Shown: positions 1,138 to 15,669 of the stretch, one piece after another
How positions within the stretch are numbered: position 1 is the first letter of the stretch
How the letters are laid out: each line of letters opens with the position of its first letter
Source of the DNA: a virus
Strand: one strand, 5' to 3'
DNA length: 20,177 nt
Virus record (IMG/VR): IMGVR_UViG_3300035670_005106
Coordinates: 1 to 20,177 of that record
The notes under the pieces: generated by a model
Told to the model about the DNA's origin: nothing
The model's database searches: none
What the model saw: the letters and a program-made list of their open reading frames with translations, nothing else
Position numbers and translations under genes: made by a program

Positions 1138-1323
1138 TTAATTTTTGTCTGCTATGTTCCAGTTACCTGTGAATTTTTTATATTGTTGTTTACTCTGTCC
1201 AGGAGTATCGTCAACATATTTAGCCGTTAGTTCTGGTCTTCCCCACTCTCCAGCACCAGCTTGAGAAACAAATTCCTGTGGCTGTGCTTTATCGGCTTTT
1301 AGAAAGTCTTTGAATTTTTTCAT
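1138..1323 (-). CDS. Small phage protein with MKxFKxFL N-terminus
   Basis: 61 aa, no recognised domain. The ORF can be opened nine codons further upstream, but the ATG at 1323 overlaps the stop of the IscA-like gene as ATGA, which fixes this start. The N-terminus ([11 protein letters not shown]) resembles the capsid-targeting leader of T4 internal proteins (MKTYQEFIAEA). It also resembles the start of the ligase-like protein at 1916-3139, but the cleavage glutamate is replaced here by Ala. The rest is polar, rich in Lys, Gln and Gly ([11 protein letters not shown]), and ends [12 protein letters not shown]. It is probably a small virion-associated or unknown late protein. The gene is certain from its overlap; the function is unknown. 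Confidence 0.6.
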
Positions 1324-1643
1324 ATTGTGAATGATGAGCCGCAACCGCATGTTGCAGTCACGTTAGGATTTTTGATTGTAAACGAAGCACCCATTAAATC
1401 TTCTTTATAATCAATCTCTGCTTCATTCATGTATTGCATACTCATACTATCTATGACAACACCAATGCCATCTTTTTCAAATGTTAAATCATCTTCAGAT
1501 GGTGGTAATTCTTCTAAAGAAAATCCATATTGAAAGCCAGAACATCCACCGCCCTGCACAAACACACGAAGCTTCAGTGAAGGATCTTCTTCATGAATGA
1601 TTGATTTGATCTTTTTTACTGCTGAATCAGATATGGTAACCAT
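1320..1643 (-). CDS. iscA: A-type iron-sulfur cluster carrier (IscA/ErpA/HesB family)
   Basis: 107 aa, the normal size of the A-type carrier family. All three conserved cluster-binding cysteines are present: C34 in [11 protein letters not shown], and C99 and C101 in the C-terminal CGCGSSF. The protein would accept or deliver [2Fe-2S]/[4Fe-4S] clusters to apo-proteins in the host cytoplasm. Known family biology: IscA, ErpA and SufA act late in Fe-S maturation. A phage copy may support phage or host Fe-S enzymes during infection. It starts directly after the stop of the upstream gene (TAA then ATG) and overlaps the next gene as ATGA. It belongs to the operon that begins at the late promoter at 3917, so late expression and even packaging are possible. 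Confidence 0.93.
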
Positions 1644-1916
1644 TTAGCCTCTTGTCAGTGACAGTAGTTTTTGAATTTGCTTCTCAATGATTGGTCCACG
1701 ATTTGGCCAATGAATATATGGTTGTTCTGCTGTCTTATATAAGTTTGTCAGAAATGGCATAATAATCTTTTCTACTTGCTGGAGTCTTACTTTATACTCT
1801 TCAACAGTTTCATCTTTCTCTGCAATGACTGCTTCATATTCAGCTTCATCAACTGCTGTAAATCCAAAATCATTATCAGAATATTCTGCTAAAATTTTAT
1901 TGATGTCGTATTCCAT
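1644..1916 (-). CDS. Conserved small phage protein (FGFTAVDE type)
   Basis: 90 aa from the ATG at 1916, which overlaps the stop of the preceding gene as TAATG. An ATG four codons upstream (1928) is possible, but it would lie inside the preceding gene. The sequence is acidic at the N-terminus (KILAEYSDNDFGFTAVDEAEYEA), then forms a predicted helix or coiled coil (EKDETVEEYKVRLQQVEKII) and a C-terminal segment YIHWPNRGPIIEKQIQKLL. Short proteins with this FGFxAVDE start recur in T4-like phages of aquatic bacteria, as far as I recall, without a known function. Its stop codon is immediately followed by the IscA-like start, so the two are tightly coupled in translation. Confidence 0.7.
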   Translation of the reverse strand: MEYDINKILAEYSDNDFGFTAVDEAEYEAVIAEKDETVEEYKVRLQQVEKIIMPFLTNLYKTAEQPYIHWPNRGPIIEKQIQKLLSLTRG

Positions 1917-3139
1917 TATTTGTCCCATGCTTTCTGTGCTGTAAAATTCTTATGGCTAAACTCAAGTCTGTCTACTAATTTCAATGCTTTACCTAAATGG
2001 TCCACCGCAACAAAACCTTCAGGTGCAGTTACTTTGAAACCATCGTCTGTCCGAACAAACGTACCAATACTTTTAATTGTTTCTAGCTTGCGAATGATCA
2101 TCAACTTTGCATCAACAATCATATTCATCAAATCAAAAATGAGTTTAAGTTGTATTGCATTAGACCTATAGAAACGCATAACTTCATTTTTCTCTTTGAT
2201 GCGTTTTTGTTTTGTGTCTTCTTTTTTAGCTGCAAGAATTTCTTTATTCAGTTTTGCTTCTACCCAATTTATTAACTCTTGTGTATGCGCTCTTGTATCT
2301 GCAATCTTCTTGCCCTCACGTACCTTTGTGTTATTGAATGTTTTGATTTGCGTTAGAAAAACGTCTGATGCTGCAATACGATTCAATGTCAATGCAGGTA
2401 TTGTTTGAAATACACGGCCAGCTTGTGAAAGAACTGATGTGATCTCAGCGGTTTCTTGTTCTGTAAATGTTGCTGAACCAGATGCGTCGGTGAATGATGC
2501 GTCACGGAACCAAACATCTTTTGTTGGTTTCAAATGTCCAATATCAATATTAAATGATGCTTTCATTGTATCTAGAGTTTTACCAAAATATGCTGTATGA
2601 AAGACTATGCCGATCTGAGCAGCAAGCATTGTTTGTGCTAGTTTAGATTTTACTGGTACAGCATACACGATTGTATTTGGCTGAAAGGTAATATAATCTT
2701 CACCATCAATTGTTTCATGCTTGATGTCACCCTTAGAAAACATCATGTCGCCTTGCAGAACACCTTTGATACCCAACTTAGGCAAAAATGCTAATGCAAG
2801 TTTTAGTTTCTCATTGAGTCCTTCGCCTGGATGATTCTCATCAATATCTTTATCAGTATAATTCAGTTTTGCATTTTTTGCAAATACTGATTTCGTGCCA
2901 ACAAAAAATTTATCATTCTCAGGATTGACACCAGCAAAAATGGCAGGAGCACCATCCCACTTTGTGGTCACGTTTATTTTTGAACCTGTTTGACCAGCAA
3001 GCATATTACGCAATGAACGTAAAAACTCCAATGAACCACGTGCGCCAGAAACGCCATGATTCAATACATTGTCTTCCAAATGTTCAAGGTGAAGATTCTT
3101 TCCTTCCATACTTTCCTTTAGATATTCTTTGAAGTTCAT
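1916..3139 (-). CDS. Ligase/nucleotidyltransferase-like protein with capsid-targeting-like N-terminus
   Basis: 407 aa. The segment TTKWDGAPAIFAG (K60-W-D-G) has the shape of motif I (KxDG) of covalent nucleotidyltransferases (DNA/RNA ligases, capping enzymes), where the Lys is adenylylated. GVLQGDMMF (126-134) sits where motif III (hhhGEhhF) would be. Near the C-terminus PEGFVAVD (373-380) resembles motif IV (EGhVhk), and ALKLVDR (385-391) resembles motif V. A long charged helical insert (about 270-355) separates III from IV, which is unusual, so the fold is an inference. The N-terminus MNFKEYLKES closely matches the T4 internal-protein leader MKTYQEFIAEA, with L-x-E before the expected cleavage. 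It is coupled to the upstream nuclease gene by ATGA. Another reading would be a structural protein of unknown function. Confidence 0.6.
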   Translation of the reverse strand: MNFKEYLKESMEGKNLHLEHLEDNVLNHGVSGARGSLEFLRSLRNMLAGQTGSKINVTTKWDGAPAIFAGVNPENDKFFVGTKSVFAKNAKLNYTDKDIDENHPGEGLNEKLKLALAFLPKLGIKGVLQGDMMFSKGDIKHETIDGEDYITFQPNTIVYAVPVKSKLAQTMLAAQIGIVFHTAYFGKTLDTMKASFNIDIGHLKPTKDVWFRDASFTDASGSATFTEQETAEITSVLSQAGRVFQTIPALTLNRIAASDVFLTQIKTFNNTKVREGKKIADTRAHTQELINWVEAKLNKEILAAKKEDTKQKRIKEKNEVMRFYRSNAIQLKLIFDLMNMIVDAKLMIIRKLETIKSIGTFVRTDDGFKVTAPEGFVAVDHLGKALKLVDRLEFSHKNFTAQKAWDK

Positions 3140-3888
3140 ATGTCAAAGCAGCTTAGATTGAGGTCTTTAGTTATTATGTTCACAGTTTTTCCATTGACAG
3201 GAGCAATATTGAATGGTGATTTTTTTGTTGACGGTATTGCAAATTGCATTTCAAATGTAAACTGATAATTGCCACCTCCTTTGTATTGTACACGGGCACG
3301 ATATGTTGCTTTTGCTGAAGTGCCAAACATTGGAACACCTTTCAATTTCAATGGATTTTTTTTACCCATGAGATAGAAACCATGTGTTCCTACGTTTACA
3401 TAGTACGTGGCTTTTTTATTATAATATTGTTCAATTTTAGTTGCCGATATTTCTCCACGAATGTCTTTGAATGTATCACGATCACGTTCATATCTTTGTT
3501 GTGGTGATAGTTTACCGGCAGTAGCTTCCCATTTCAAATCTTTTTCACGTTTATAGGGAACTTCTTTCCACTCTTTTTTAATGATATCAAACAATCCAAC
3601 TTCTTCTGCAAGTTCTTTGATGAACATTTTTTCTTCATCATCTTTTTTGATATCACCAAACTTCCATGGACTTTTTTTATCTGATGAATCATACTTCAAA
3701 ACAAGGGAACCAGCAGATGCAGCCGTGATTTTTAATTCACAACCAGCTTTGATTTTTTTATACTCTAACATCAAGTCTGGCTGATCATGACCTGCACCAG
3801 CTGGAACAAAACTTTTAGGAACTAACCCCATTGGTTTCAAAACTTTTGCAGCATTAATTTCGTACTGAAATCCTTGTTGAGCAGCCAT
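3136..3888 (-). CDS. PD-(D/E)XK nuclease-like protein
   Basis: 250 aa. The N-terminal third has the pattern of PD-(D/E)XK nucleases: a helix with E10 (GFQYEINAAKVL), then PD at 37-38 (HDQPDLML), then E51-L-K53 after a beta turn (KAGCELKI). That gives PD-x12-ExK on consecutive strands. The rest is basic and includes RYERDRDTFKDIRGE and a C-terminal beta-rich region (KATYRARVQYKGGGNYQFTFEMQF) that could bind nucleic acid. The start at 3888 has a clear GGAG Shine-Dalgarno. It is the first gene after the TATAAATA late promoter at 3910-3917, and its stop overlaps the ligase-like gene as ATGA. A nuclease made late next to a ligase-like protein suggests DNA packaging, repair or host-defence functions. 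The motif reading is good, the biological role unknown. Confidence 0.68.
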   Translation of the reverse strand: MAAQQGFQYEINAAKVLKPMGLVPKSFVPAGAGHDQPDLMLEYKKIKAGCELKITAASAGSLVLKYDSSDKKSPWKFGDIKKDDEEKMFIKELAEEVGLFDIIKKEWKEVPYKREKDLKWEATAGKLSPQQRYERDRDTFKDIRGEISATKIEQYYNKKATYYVNVGTHGFYLMGKKNPLKLKGVPMFGTSAKATYRARVQYKGGGNYQFTFEMQFAIPSTKKSPFNIAPVNGKTVNIITKDLNLSCFDI

Positions 3889-3909: not shown

Positions 3910-3917
3910 TATTTATA
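3910..3917 (-). promoter_or_regulatory. T4-type late promoter upstream of the nuclease/ligase-like operon
   Basis: On the minus strand the octamer TATAAATA exactly matches the T4 late promoter consensus recognised by gp55 (with gp33 and the gp45 clamp). It overlaps the gp41 stop. The start of transcription would be about 5-7 nt downstream, leaving a short leader that contains the GGAG Shine-Dalgarno of the nuclease gene at 3888. It is the only exact match I found on the minus strand by eye. It marks the change from early replication genes to a late operon. Confidence 0.7.
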
Positions 3918-13115: not shown

Positions 13116-13331
13116 TCATTTTCCTAATCCACCTTTATAGGTTTCTTCTTTTAGTTTTTGGATTTGTTCTTTGCTAAGTAGGCGCAAGGCTTCTCTTGCT
13201 TTGGAGTCGGACAGGCCAAAGGCCAGCTTGATACATTCCAAATCATCGTTTTTTTCTGCTTTTGCCCACTTCGCAAATGGTCTTTTCATAGACCTTACGG
13301 TATTTAGTCTTTCAATGTTTTCATGAACCAT
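13116..13331 (-). CDS. Duplicated C-terminal fragment of clamp loader gp62
   Basis: 71 aa. From residue 11 on it is a near copy of the last 60 residues of gp62: VRSMKRPFAKWAKAEKN and SKAREALRLLSKEQIQ are identical in both. DNA identity is about 90% over 161 bp (13141-13301 versus 13726-13886), without gaps, and many differences are silent. The first ten residues (MVHENIERLN) overlap the end of the HNH gene and have no gp62 counterpart. There is no good Shine-Dalgarno at 13331; an internal ATG at 13289 has TAAGG just upstream and may be the real start. It is probably the displaced original 3' end of gp62, since it still abuts regA. It may be a non-functional remnant or a free C-terminal peptide; the frame is intact. 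Confidence 0.72.
   Translation of the reverse strand: MVHENIERLNTVRSMKRPFAKWAKAEKNDDLECIKLAFGLSDSKAREALRLLSKEQIQKLKEETYKGGLGK
13141..13301 (-). repeat. gp62 3' repeat, copy A (in fragment before regA)
   Basis: 161 bp that align without gaps to 13726-13886, offset 585 bp. By eye there are about 16 mismatches, about 90% identity, with one perfect run of more than 40 bases. It ends three bases from the HNH stop codon. Confidence 0.9.
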
Positions 13332-13666
13332 AGTAATTTTTCTATATCGTCAACACTACAATCGTTTTTCATTTTATTTGCTTTGAAAGATATGACTTGT
13401 ATATTTCCCTTCACATATCCTTTTTTGGGATCTATCCTATCTAATGATGGAGATTTATCTGATGGTCCTTTTCCTTTTCCTACTTCAAATTTGAAGCCAA
13501 AAACTGGACAAACATCAGGTATGTCAATGTCTTCTTTCAAAATATTGAACTCTACACCATTTTTTTCTGATCTTTTTTTTGCTCTCCACCACATACATTT
13601 TACGTAATATGTAGATATGTCTTTATATTCTTTTCTTTCTCTTTCATTAGTATTAGCGTTTCTCAT
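13304..13666 (-). CDS. HNH family homing endonuclease-like protein
   Basis: 120 aa from the ATG at 13666, chosen over the longer ORF start (13720, inside gp62) because a GGAGAA Shine-Dalgarno lies at the right distance. The core follows phage HNH nucleases of the DRIDP type: DVCPVFGFKFEVGKG (C53), SPSLDRIDPKKGYVKGN (D76-R-I-D, G83-Y-V, G87-N), then ISFKANKMKND (N97, K98). These supply the ββα-metal fold. The first cysteine is kept, while a second CxxC Cys is replaced by Phe. It lies exactly between two copies of the gp62 3' end, stopping two bases short of one of them, as a free-standing mobile gene would. Confidence 0.82.
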   Translation of the reverse strand: MRNANTNERERKEYKDISTYYVKCMWWRAKKRSEKNGVEFNILKEDIDIPDVCPVFGFKFEVGKGKGPSDKSPSLDRIDPKKGYVKGNIQVISFKANKMKNDCSVDDIEKLLWFMKTLKD

Positions 13667-13694
13667 ATTATTCTCCAGTGAGTATTTGCTAATA

Positions 13695-14087
13695 CTATTT
13701 AGTATTTTTGATTCCTCCAATTTGTGTTTCTTCTTTTAGTTGTTGGATTTGTTCTTTGCTAAGTAGGCGCAAGGCTTCTCTTGCTTTAGAATTAGACAGA
13801 CTAAAGATTAATTTGATACATTCCAAATCTTCATTTTTTTCTGCTTTTGCCCACTTCGCAAACGGTCTTTTCATAGACCTTACCGTGTAAAGCAAAAAGT
13901 CATTTTGAAGCTTTTTGTCCAGATGGTGCCTGCGGTTCATCTCATTTGCGTACAGAACACAATCTTTATGCTGAGACAATGCACGATTGGTCAGAAAGGG
14001 TTGATATTCCTTCTCAGTCAGATCATCAACAATCAGTTGCCTCTTGGACTGAAGAATGGATTTGACATACTCAAATGGATCGCTCAT
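13695..14087 (-). CDS. gp62: Clamp loader small subunit, T4 gp62 type
   Basis: 130 aa, as in the shorter gp62 of aquatic T4-like phages (T4 gp62 is 187). gp62 joins four gp44 subunits to form the clamp loader that opens gp45. The N-terminus MSDPFEYVKSILQSKRQLI and the central YANEMNRRHHLDKKLQNDF, then the basic C-terminal region with RPFAKWAKAEK and SKAREALRLLSKEQIQ, fit gp62. The start overlaps the methyltransferase stop as ATGA, with a GGAGT Shine-Dalgarno. The last 60 residues are duplicated downstream at 13116-13331. This copy ends TQIGGIKNTK while the other ends TYKGGLGK, so the tail may have been replaced when the HNH gene inserted. Confidence 0.88.
   Translation of the reverse strand: MSDPFEYVKSILQSKRQLIVDDLTEKEYQPFLTNRALSQHKDCVLYANEMNRRHHLDKKLQNDFLLYTVRSMKRPFAKWAKAEKNEDLECIKLIFSLSNSKAREALRLLSKEQIQQLKEETQIGGIKNTK
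13696..13702 (-). promoter_or_regulatory. Possible late promoter of HNH gene (CTAAATA)
   Basis: The minus strand reads ACTAAATAG at the gp62 stop, 6/8 to the T4 late consensus and an exact CTAAATA, a form seen in late promoters of T4-like cyanophages. It lies about 30 nt before the HNH ATG (13666). It is within a small palindrome (AATACTAAATAGTATT, 13691-13706), so chance is possible. Confidence 0.3.
13726..13886 (-). repeat. gp62 3' repeat, copy B (in complete gp62)
   Basis: Second copy of the 161-bp direct repeat, inside the full-length gp62. The repeat starts at the codons for TVRSM and runs to near the C-terminus. The HNH gene lies between the two copies, so the unit HNH + one copy is 585 bp. 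Confidence 0.9.
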
Positions 14088-15097
14088 TTGGACTCCATAA
14101 TTTTGTAAACTTCAGTTGTGTCTGCGCTTTTTAAATTTTTAGATGTGTCTTGTAGTGCTTGTCGTTTGCTACTCAAAACGGAAAAGACTTCAGATAAGAA
14201 ATATTGTTTATCTTTAAGTATTCTTTCAACATCATTTTTCATATCTCTTCTACCTACTTTACCAACATTCCAACATGTAACACCACCATCATTTAAATAA
14301 TCTAAAGAATTTACGATTAGTGGTTCTAGAAAAGAATTAATCCATCCATCATAATCAGAAATGTTCGTTATTGATTGTGTGTCTTCTTTACAATACACTT
14401 CTACGTCAAAATATGGTGGACTAGTCAGAATCATATCAACTTTAGGTAAGCTGTAAGCATTCATCTTTAAAGCATCGTCACAAATCAATGTTACTTTATC
14501 TTGAATGTTTAAAAATTTAACTATCTCCATCAAACCCGTATATGTCTCCGTGTTCGGTTCAAATGCAATATAGTTTGCACCGCTTGAAACAACACCCAAC
14601 ATTCTACCACCCCAACCAGCGCAAGGATCAAAAACTATTTTAGGTTTGTGATGTATGCATAATAGTTTTGCCATTTGTGGTCTGTACATTGTATTTTTAG
14701 TAAGACCGCAACAAAAATAAATTCCTCTTTTAATTTCTGATAAGTATGGCGTACTATGGCTTTTTCTGTTCCATCTTAGTATTTTTTCCAAATTGTCAGC
14801 AGTCCAACTGTTAGAAAAACTTTTACCTTTATTGTTTTCAATGTCATAAAAATTTGGAAAATAATGTTCACAAAGTTTCATACCAATTCTTGATGTTGAA
14901 TTTATGTAATCATCTTTTGAGTTCCACTTACATAAATTATTCCAATCAGTTCTCAATTGTTGATCAGAATATTTTGATATAAAACTAATATTTTCTAACT
15001 GAGAAGCAAGTGTTGCGACAACAGATTCAAATTCAATATCATTTAACTTTCGTGTGGTATTTCTAATATTCAAAAAATTATGGATATTTACATCCAT
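14084..15097 (-). CDS. DNA methyltransferase (TSPPY type), likely restriction-modification partner
   Basis: 337 aa. Motif I is VFDPCAGWGGRMLG (156-168), an acidic motif II residue is E180 (YIAFEPNT), and motif III is CDDAL (about 207-211). The catalytic motif IV is TSPPY (225-229), which marks an N4-cytosine or N6-adenine DNA methyltransferase. The N-terminal 140 residues include a region ending MYRPQMAKLLC that probably contains target recognition; the family is not recognised beyond this. The preceding gene (15088-15669) is a PD-(D/E)XK-like nuclease that overlaps by 10 nt. The stop overlaps gp62 as ATGA. The region is visibly AT-richer than its replication neighbours, consistent with transfer. 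Confidence 0.85.
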   Translation of the reverse strand: MDVNIHNFLNIRNTTRKLNDIEFESVVATLASQLENISFISKYSDQQLRTDWNNLCKWNSKDDYINSTSRIGMKLCEHYFPNFYDIENNKGKSFSNSWTADNLEKILRWNRKSHSTPYLSEIKRGIYFCCGLTKNTMYRPQMAKLLCIHHKPKIVFDPCAGWGGRMLGVVSSGANYIAFEPNTETYTGLMEIVKFLNIQDKVTLICDDALKMNAYSLPKVDMILTSPPYFDVEVYCKEDTQSITNISDYDGWINSFLEPLIVNSLDYLNDGGVTCWNVGKVGRRDMKNDVERILKDKQYFLSEVFSVLSSKRQALQDTSKNLKSADTTEVYKIMESK

Positions 15098-15669
15098 AGT
15101 TCAACCCCTATCTTTTTTATACCATCTTTCATCCACACACTCATTTCTTGTAAAATTTTAGCGGTTTCTAGCTTAGAATAATCACTGGAAAACATGTAGT
15201 CATCATTTTCACTATTTTTACCTCCTTGTTGATGCTTGAAAACGCAATTGTTTGAGTTTATATTTTTAACAAAATCTTCTTTGCATATCCAATTTATACG
15301 AAAATGATCATTTGGATTTACGCCAAGTAATATTAATCTCTCCCAATCTTTATGACATGCAAGATGATTAAACGTAAAATAGTCTGTTTTCATACTTAAA
15401 CTGAACTTGATTTCAGTTTTGTATCCATCAATTATTCTATCATGCTCCCTATTTCTTCTTGGATAAACTTCACTACCTTTTTTTTGCATTATCTTAGACA
15501 CTAAAATTTCACCAAAAGCTCCCATTTGTGTGTTTGAGAGTTTTAAGTATCCTTCATATTGCGTCCCAATCCAAGGATCATCAATATCAATCCTTGATTT
15601 CACGTAATTATGAAGAACACCGTCTTCAAAAAATTCATTTAAAGACACAATATTTTGATCGTGTTTCAT
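15088..15669 (-). CDS. PD-(D/E)XK-like restriction endonuclease candidate
   Basis: 193 aa. MGAFGEILVSKIMQKKG (E54 on a helix), then REHDRIID (D77, D81) and TEIKFS (E86-I-K88) give the E...D-x-ExK layout of the PD-(D/E)XK fold, like many type II restriction enzymes. The protein is small, basic in the centre and soluble. It lies between gp44 (ATGA overlap) and a TSPPY DNA methyltransferase (10-nt overlap). That gene order and coupling is what makes a restriction endonuclease the best reading. A lone homing-type nuclease protected by the neighbouring methylase would be an alternative. The recognition site cannot be derived from the sequence. Confidence 0.72.
   Translation of the reverse strand: MKHDQNIVSLNEFFEDGVLHNYVKSRIDIDDPWIGTQYEGYLKLSNTQMGAFGEILVSKIMQKKGSEVYPRRNREHDRIIDGYKTEIKFSLSMKTDYFTFNHLACHKDWERLILLGVNPNDHFRINWICKEDFVKNINSNNCVFKHQQGGKNSENDDYMFSSDYSKLETAKILQEMSVWMKDGIKKIGVELWM

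Follow-up and report, generated by a model that had tools for sequence, protein, structure and literature searches.

A putative late-expressed, capsid-targeted nuclease and nucleotidyltransferase cassette in a T4-like phage genome fragment

The closest described counterparts of the locus considered here include the internal proteins of phage T4. These carry a capsid-targeting sequence, the first 10 residues of which are enough for targeting, which is removed by gp21 after (L/I)xE, residues 4 and 7 being of importance for targeting and residues 8 and 10 for processing (PMC9026906; the biology of this tag is also covered in PMC3012670). T4 IP1-3 are injected, and the GmrSD type IV restriction enzyme that is blocked differs from one of these proteins to the next (PMC12373910). 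The DNA analysed is the virus record IMGVR_UViG_3300035670_005106, a genome fragment of 20,177 bases, the whole of which is referred to as the window and supplies the coordinates given unless a related record is named. Two of its open reading frames (ORFs), of 407 and 250 amino acids (aa), share an ATGA overlap and encode a predicted nucleotidyltransferase of the DUF6267 family and, directly upstream, a predicted endonuclease (Table 1). The position directly upstream of DUF6267 is occupied by different genes in different phages and is termed the slot. On balance, we lean slightly towards the view that the pair constitutes a late, head-packaged enzyme cassette of a T4-like phage, which is brought into play as the next infection begins.

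The 407-aa protein matches Pfam DUF6267 (PF19782) over its whole length, as well as phrog_455, and the family is known as T4-GC_71 in cyanophage annotation. The original prediction, made from the sequence of the window, had placed the pair outside the known T4 replication set, which holds for its function, while as a family DUF6267 was already catalogued under these names. Homologues are present in 465 phage records, mostly of Synechococcus and Prochlorococcus myoviruses (Kyanoviridae), with others from Methylophilales, Pelagibacter, Stenotrophomonas, Pseudoalteromonas and Vibrio phages, and DUF6267 is named in no paper of the literature searched. When bacterial and archaeal genomes were scanned, the family was located almost solely on contigs of metagenome bins; these were read as mis-binned phage sequences, and no host context was therefore derived from the scan. 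The two ORFs, their ATGA joint and motifs I, III-like, IV and V all lie where the original prediction had placed them (Table 1). Across 116 diverse DUF6267 sequences, reaching down to ~25% identity, residues K60, D62, G63, P65, Q129, D131, E374, G375, K387 and R391 are invariant, and KxDG, EG(F/Y)V and KLVxR are conserved throughout, while KxDG occurs in 262/265 complete DUF6267 ORFs and EGxV followed by K[LIV][VI] in 259/265. The conservation of the motif residues is far beyond chance. A helical insert (approximately residues 227-353) separates motifs III and IV. Natural variants of ~300 aa are without most of this insert and retain the motif residues, for which reason the invariant residues are taken to mark the DUF6267 core. 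A further conserved stretch, H-x-x-H-x-E-D (H17/H20/E22/D23; residues 17-23; window 3071-3091, minus strand), is found just before the nucleotidyltransferase core and may possibly bind metal or the leaving group of a nucleotide cofactor.

The original prediction would have been refuted by a model without a nucleotidyltransferase fold, but structure prediction yielded a nucleotidyltransferase-type fold and did not refute it. The AlphaFold2 model of the 407-aa protein has a predicted local distance difference test (pLDDT) score of 86.7, with low confidence in the first 13 residues, and all 50 rows listed in its VIA-align comparison against the PDB are RNA or DNA ligases. The top neighbour is the Naegleria RNA ligase (Z: 8.9; 184 residues; root-mean-square deviation: ~4 Å), with further Z values of 8.1 for TbREL1, 7.9 for T4 Rnl1, 7.5 for T4 Rnl2 and 6-6.6 for DNA ligases. 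In the model, a strand ends with K60 and the final two strands carry motifs IV and V, an arrangement also known from ligases. The motif III-like Q129-G-D131 likewise sits on a strand, with Asp where Glu is usual. A C-terminal OB domain is not seen, as the chain stops 16 residues past R391 with one helix, and no significant ligase link was found for DUF6267 in a PDB-sequence profile search or at loose cut-offs in Pfam/NCBIfam. The best match of the model in BFVD is a 591-aa protein of S-PM2 named cytidyltransferase-like. Because VIA-align lists ligases, yet there is neither a profile match to Rnl1 nor an OB domain, the modelled DUF6267 protein is placed in the covalent nucleotidyltransferase superfamily as a new branch, with a fold most like that of RNA ligases and a correspondingly predicted activity.

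The 250-aa protein contains the P37-D38 and E51-L-K53 residues which the original prediction had claimed for a PD-(D/E)XK nuclease. Its homologues retain G6, Y9, E10, D38, E51 and K53, and among 47 of them E51 and K53 are invariant and D38 is present in at least 90%. In the AlphaFold2 model (pLDDT: 93.7) D38 opens strand 39-43 and E51-x-K53 closes strand 46-53. VIA-align places HhaI first (Z: 11.0; 181 residues; 9% identity), and the next entries, Hjc resolvases and the homing enzyme I-Ssp6803I, are PD-(D/E)XK enzymes as well. Foldseek of the nuclease model against the PDB returned nothing at E < 0.5 and PADLOC gave no match for the protein, and the best reading of the model is a predicted restriction-type endonuclease. 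A cytosine-5 methyltransferase annotated as HhaI-like is encoded near the DNA polymerase gene of phage Melnitz (L502 4010-5227), which is of interest because the window nuclease resembles the HhaI endonuclease.

Table 1. Coordinates of the predicted features of the cassette and its flanks in the window
Feature	Position	Strand	Basis
94-aa gene 3' of DUF6267, overlapping the DUF6267 end	1644..1928	-	Conserved in close relatives; no assigned function
DUF6267 protein, 407 aa, predicted ligase-superfamily nucleotidyltransferase	1916..3139	-	Pfam (E-value: 7e-115), motifs, AlphaFold2, VIA-align
Motif V, K387-L-V-D-R391	1967..1981	-	Conservation
Motif IV, E374-G-F-V377	2009..2020	-	Conservation
Motif III-like, L128-Q-G-D131	2747..2758	-	Conservation
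Motif I, K60-W-D-G63	2951..2962	-	Conservation
Capsid-targeting tag MNFKEYLKE, predicted gp21-type cut after E9 (LKE/S)	3113..3139	-	Pattern statistics and the rule in PMC9026906
PD-(D/E)XK endonuclease, 250 aa, predicted HhaI-like fold (E10, D38, E51-x-K53)	3136..3888	-	Conservation, AlphaFold2, VIA-align
E51-L52-K53 codons, nuclease motif	3730..3738	-	Conservation
D38 codon, nuclease motif	3775..3777	-	Conservation
T4-type late promoter TATAAATA, with the ATG of the nuclease gene 29 nt downstream	3910..3917	-	Site search; conservation in related loci

The DUF6267 protein starts with a predicted capsid-targeting tag, in which the aromatic, aromatic, aliphatic and Glu positions are spaced as in the T4 tag. 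T4 IPII and IPIII start with MKTYQEFIAE/A (the slash marking the cut), and T4 gp23 has FLTE/A, its cleavage site. The tag is borne by most long DUF6267 forms outside the cyanophages, and a strict T4-like pattern was matched by 98/142 long DUF6267 proteins. The corresponding rates were 0.2% for shuffled sequences and 3.4% for other ORFs, and several of the matching other ORFs are neighbours in the same cassette. DUF6267 is the sole tagged ORF among the 90 in the window. In the complete Melnitz genome, the single strict match in 441 ORFs is the slot gene directly upstream of DUF6267, while the Melnitz DUF6267 protein carries LINFSKYITE/D and the capsid protein of this phage a like site, FLSE/A. 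A chance origin of the tag was considered and is ruled out by the shuffle and genome-wide counts. Furthermore, a gp21-type prohead protease (Peptidase_S77) is encoded in 9/10 related records, the corresponding region lying outside the window fragment, and a divergent homologue of the window nuclease, at locus L242, is itself tagged (MTVRFKSFITE/S). A small ORF of the window (1138-1350, minus strand) contains a tag-like stretch without the cleavage Glu. The capsid-targeting tag had been overlooked in the original prediction, and it lends indirect support to the suggestion made there of counter-defence in the next host.

The cassette is also larger than the two genes first described, as there are tagged neighbours in relatives which had similarly been overlooked. 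In the relatives it continues with a tagged HAD phosphatase, which in close relatives (L012 3824-4612; L050 2978-3766) occupies the place of the small tag-like ORF at window 1138-1350 and shows a weak match to polynucleotide kinase (E-value: 0.003). DUF6267 may alternatively be a delivered RNA-repair ligase which counters host tRNA or RNA cleavage, as T4 Rnl1 does with Pnkp, with the nuclease functionally separate. This alternative is rather unlikely, but draws on the RNA ligases being the closest structural neighbours, on the lack of an OB domain past motif V and on the tagged phosphatase being next in line in close relatives. However, the link through this phosphatase is weak and its gene is missing from the window, while DUF6267 usually lies directly behind another slot gene, often with an ATGA overlap.

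The original prediction had further reported a late promoter ahead of the pair, and TATAAATA is present at this site. A single such octamer could be due to chance, with a mean of 1.44 expected in the window and at least one in 79/100 shuffles, but the promoter is taken as real because it is conserved across loci. The exact TATAAATA is found near the slot-gene start in 96/196 related loci (0.019 expected per region), nearly always at -47 to -16 of the slot gene, and NATAAATA is found near it in 140/196 (71%, ~20-fold above background; 0.035 expected per region). The promoter is retained even where the slot gene behind it has been swapped for an unrelated one. Late expression of the cassette is thus a supported prediction from the conserved promoter, and conservation, predicted folds and the promoter test together uphold the proposal of a late, translationally coupled nuclease and nucleotidyltransferase.

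Computation and sequence comparison support the predicted folds, the catalytic motifs, the late promoter, the tag and the swapping of the slot gene. On the parallel with T4 IP1-3, we infer an injected-cargo mechanism, which extends to the packaging of the window DUF6267 protein, its injection, the catalysis and substrates of both enzymes and their joint action. The DUF6267 tag would steer the protein into the prohead and be removed by a gp21-type protease. The slot gene would provide a swappable endonuclease, here HhaI-like, which would be co-made through ATGA coupling and is probably co-packaged with DUF6267, given that a tagged relative of the window nuclease exists. Both enzymes would enter the next host together with the phage DNA, where the nuclease would cut DNA other than the phage's own, be it that of the host, a plasmid or a rival phage, and the nucleotidyltransferase would adenylylate and seal nicks or breaks, with the nucleic acid of the phage itself as the likeliest substrate, although that of the host is possible. 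It is unlikely that the pair instead serves the same infection, by trimming and sealing replication or recombination intermediates in the prohead or at packaging, with the tag merely recruiting it to the head. The late promoter and the tag would fit such a role as well, and in many phages DUF6267 is encoded next to gp41, uvsX and gp43 of the replication machinery, but the known T4 proteins with such a tag are injected and target host defences (PMC9026906, PMC12373910), and the slot gene is as variable as the T4 internal proteins, which would be unexpected for a housekeeping packaging step.

The genes directly upstream of DUF6267 form 38 single-linkage clusters, many of them unrelated and 28 including a tightly linked gene with a product of 180 aa or more, although this list takes in some genes which merely lie there by chance. 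The slot gene is often joined to DUF6267 by the ATGA overlap. One slot family, L069 (found also in DLP6 and S-PRM1), is unrelated to the window nuclease and is recognised by PADLOC as a type II restriction enzyme (E-value: 4.8e-18), and GIY-YIG SegE-like endonucleases occupy the slot in L006 and L128. For ten other slot families, PADLOC returned no match. A D...(E/S)xK nuclease motif had been seen by eye in most slot families, at 15/28 against 13.9 expected from shuffles, and the claim of widespread slot nucleases was dropped because the shuffle test shows no excess. Support for an endonuclease assignment is confined to the window and L069 families, plus the GIY-YIG insertions. The many unrelated families, the SegE-like enzymes and the presence of I-Ssp6803I among the structural neighbours of the window nuclease would also be in keeping with the slot nucleases being homing or selfish endonucleases which invade a spot beside DUF6267 and are paired with it without joint function. 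We regard this as improbable, since the late promoter and tight spacing are preserved before different families, one slot family is type II restriction enzyme-like, and free-standing homing enzymes are usually added beside a promoter-driven gene rather than replacing it.

A HIGH-type, NMNAT-like cytidylyltransferase is also part of the cassette in relatives and is tagged in many phages. The cytidylyltransferase-like proteins of L204 (8685-9950) and L206 (4699-6087) start with MKTYQRFMTE and MKTYKNLIKE, respectively, nearly the MKTYQEFIAE of T4. Fusions of DUF6267 to a cytidylyltransferase (FGRMNPPTxGH) are encoded in L137 (5080-7068; 663 aa), where the fusion opens with the tag MLTFSTFLVE, and in L131 (6732-8618; 629 aa). 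The neighbouring cytidylyltransferase has been detected in the virions of S-SM1 (PMC3037559), S-SZBM1 (PMC9146016) and S-CREM2 (PMC10665884), and related NMNAT-like proteins in other virion proteomes (PMC9602691). The virion cytidylyltransferases of S-SZBM1 and S-CREM2 start with MRFRQFIIE/A and MKNFSSFLTE/A, while the untagged DUF6267 proteins of these phages (SSZBM1_141 and S-CREM2 gp87) were not detected in their mass-spectrometry virion proteomes. Both proteomes agree with the tag rule, in a small sample of two phages where absence from a proteome is weak evidence, and untagged proteins too occur among virion proteins. It is similarly improbable that the ligase fold of DUF6267 has another job, such as RNA 5' capping, protein modification or NAD+ use with cofactor regeneration by the NMNAT/cytidylyltransferase neighbour, for although the human capping enzyme stands first, below significance, in the Foldseek comparison, the two genes are fused or adjacent and H17/H20/E22/D23 are conserved ahead of the core, the VIA-align list consists of ligases throughout and there is no direct evidence for such a role.

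Several results weigh against the injected cassette favoured here. Foldseek of the DUF6267 model against the PDB returned nothing significant (all E > 0.5), and hhalign against T4 Rnl1 gave a probability of 0.7% (E-value: 0.08) over 20 columns near motifs IV/V. The ligase assignment of the model rests on the motifs and a Z of 8.9, near the level at which the tool speaks of possibly a common arrangement. The window nuclease itself is without a tag. Cyanophage DUF6267 begins just past the tag position, at M-x-K-N-T-H-L-E-H-L-E-D, and packaging is therefore not universal in the family; the proteomes matched gene by gene cover solely phages with such untagged forms. The slot also swaps independently of DUF6267, which disfavours a tightly co-evolved enzyme pair. 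Of the cut-and-seal pair in the original prediction, both enzyme classes are retained, while joint action stays hypothetical, given this independent swapping and the lack of a sequence link to known ligases.

A wider extension of the injected cassette can be offered tentatively and with more doubt: a broad group of T4-like phages may carry a head-loaded, tag-delivered modular kit, comprising the swappable nuclease, DUF6267 and, in relatives, the HAD phosphatase and the NMNAT-like enzyme, which would be injected to cut foreign DNA and repair the phage's own. The DUF6267 family, the nucleotidyltransferase and PD-(D/E)XK superfamilies and the T4 internal proteins are already known, but no description was found in the literature searched of a tagged enzyme of predicted ligase type that is encoded behind a swappable, restriction-like nuclease and preceded by a late promoter. 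DUF6267, which is found in hundreds of sequenced phages, gains a testable role from its predicted catalytic fold and capsid tag. The cassette suggests that the injected cargo of T4-like phages may reach past small inhibitors to nucleic-acid enzymes, and with the tag rule, uncultured phages can be surveyed quickly for candidate injected proteins.

Additional genes of the window lie on the same strand as the pair. Family searches identified the gene directly upstream as that of a DnaB-like (gp41-type) helicase. The genes lying beyond it in the upstream direction, for a RecA/UvsX-like protein, B-family DNA polymerase, clamp loader subunit and sliding clamp, were called from the ORF translations and the gene order in relatives. 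It is on these genes that the source is considered a T4-like phage. An IscA/HesB-like iron-sulphur assembly protein is encoded in the same gene row (1320-1643, minus strand; Pfam Fe-S_biosyn; E-value: 3.9e-21) and its gene is also kept in close relatives. A restriction-modification-like pair is located at 14084-15669 (minus strand), where the gene for a 337-aa TSPPY DNA methyltransferase (14084-15097; PADLOC MTase_II; E-value: 4.7e-9) is overlapped by that for a 193-aa type II restriction endonuclease-like protein (PADLOC E-value: 4.3e-14). The methyltransferase could shield the phage genome from type II restriction endonuclease-like nucleases. At 13116-14087 (minus strand), VRSMKRPFAKWAKAEKN..LECIKL..KAREALRLLSKEQIQ is present twice, in ORFs of 130 and 71 aa, between which lies a 138-aa ORF of HNH-endonuclease-like appearance (13304-13720), possibly reflecting an endonuclease insertion with partial duplication of a host gene.

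Among known systems, the RNA ligases (Naegleria Rnl, T4 Rnl1, T4 Rnl2 and TbREL1) share with DUF6267 the KxDG, EGxV and KLx motifs in the same order, with 166-194 residues aligned at Z values of 7.4-8.9. Unlike these, DUF6267 lacks a significant profile match, has a helical insert between motifs III and IV and an Asp in its motif III-like segment (QGD), and ends just past motif V. The nuclease resembles HhaI, Hjc, I-Ssp6803I and HinP1I in D38, E51-x-K53, the E10-bearing helix and the sheet core, but differs from HhaI in being ~9% identical to it, in its nucleotidyltransferase partner and in having no methylase gene directly adjoining. The cyanophage virion cytidylyltransferase/NMNAT (T4-GC_190) either adjoins DUF6267 or is fused to it, bears the tag in many phages and has been found in virions, but is an unrelated HIGH-type enzyme which does not occur in the window fragment. 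Finally, T4 IPI, IPII, IPIII and Alt resemble the cassette in variable cargo and in the late expression and gp21-type site predicted for it, and the N-terminal pattern [FY]xx[FYL][LI]xE/[AGS] is common to DUF6267, IPII and IPIII. However, whereas the T4 internal proteins are small and inhibit type IV restriction enzymes, the protein tagged here is a predicted nucleotidyltransferase, and the tag is borne in relatives by a nuclease, phosphatases and cytidylyltransferases.

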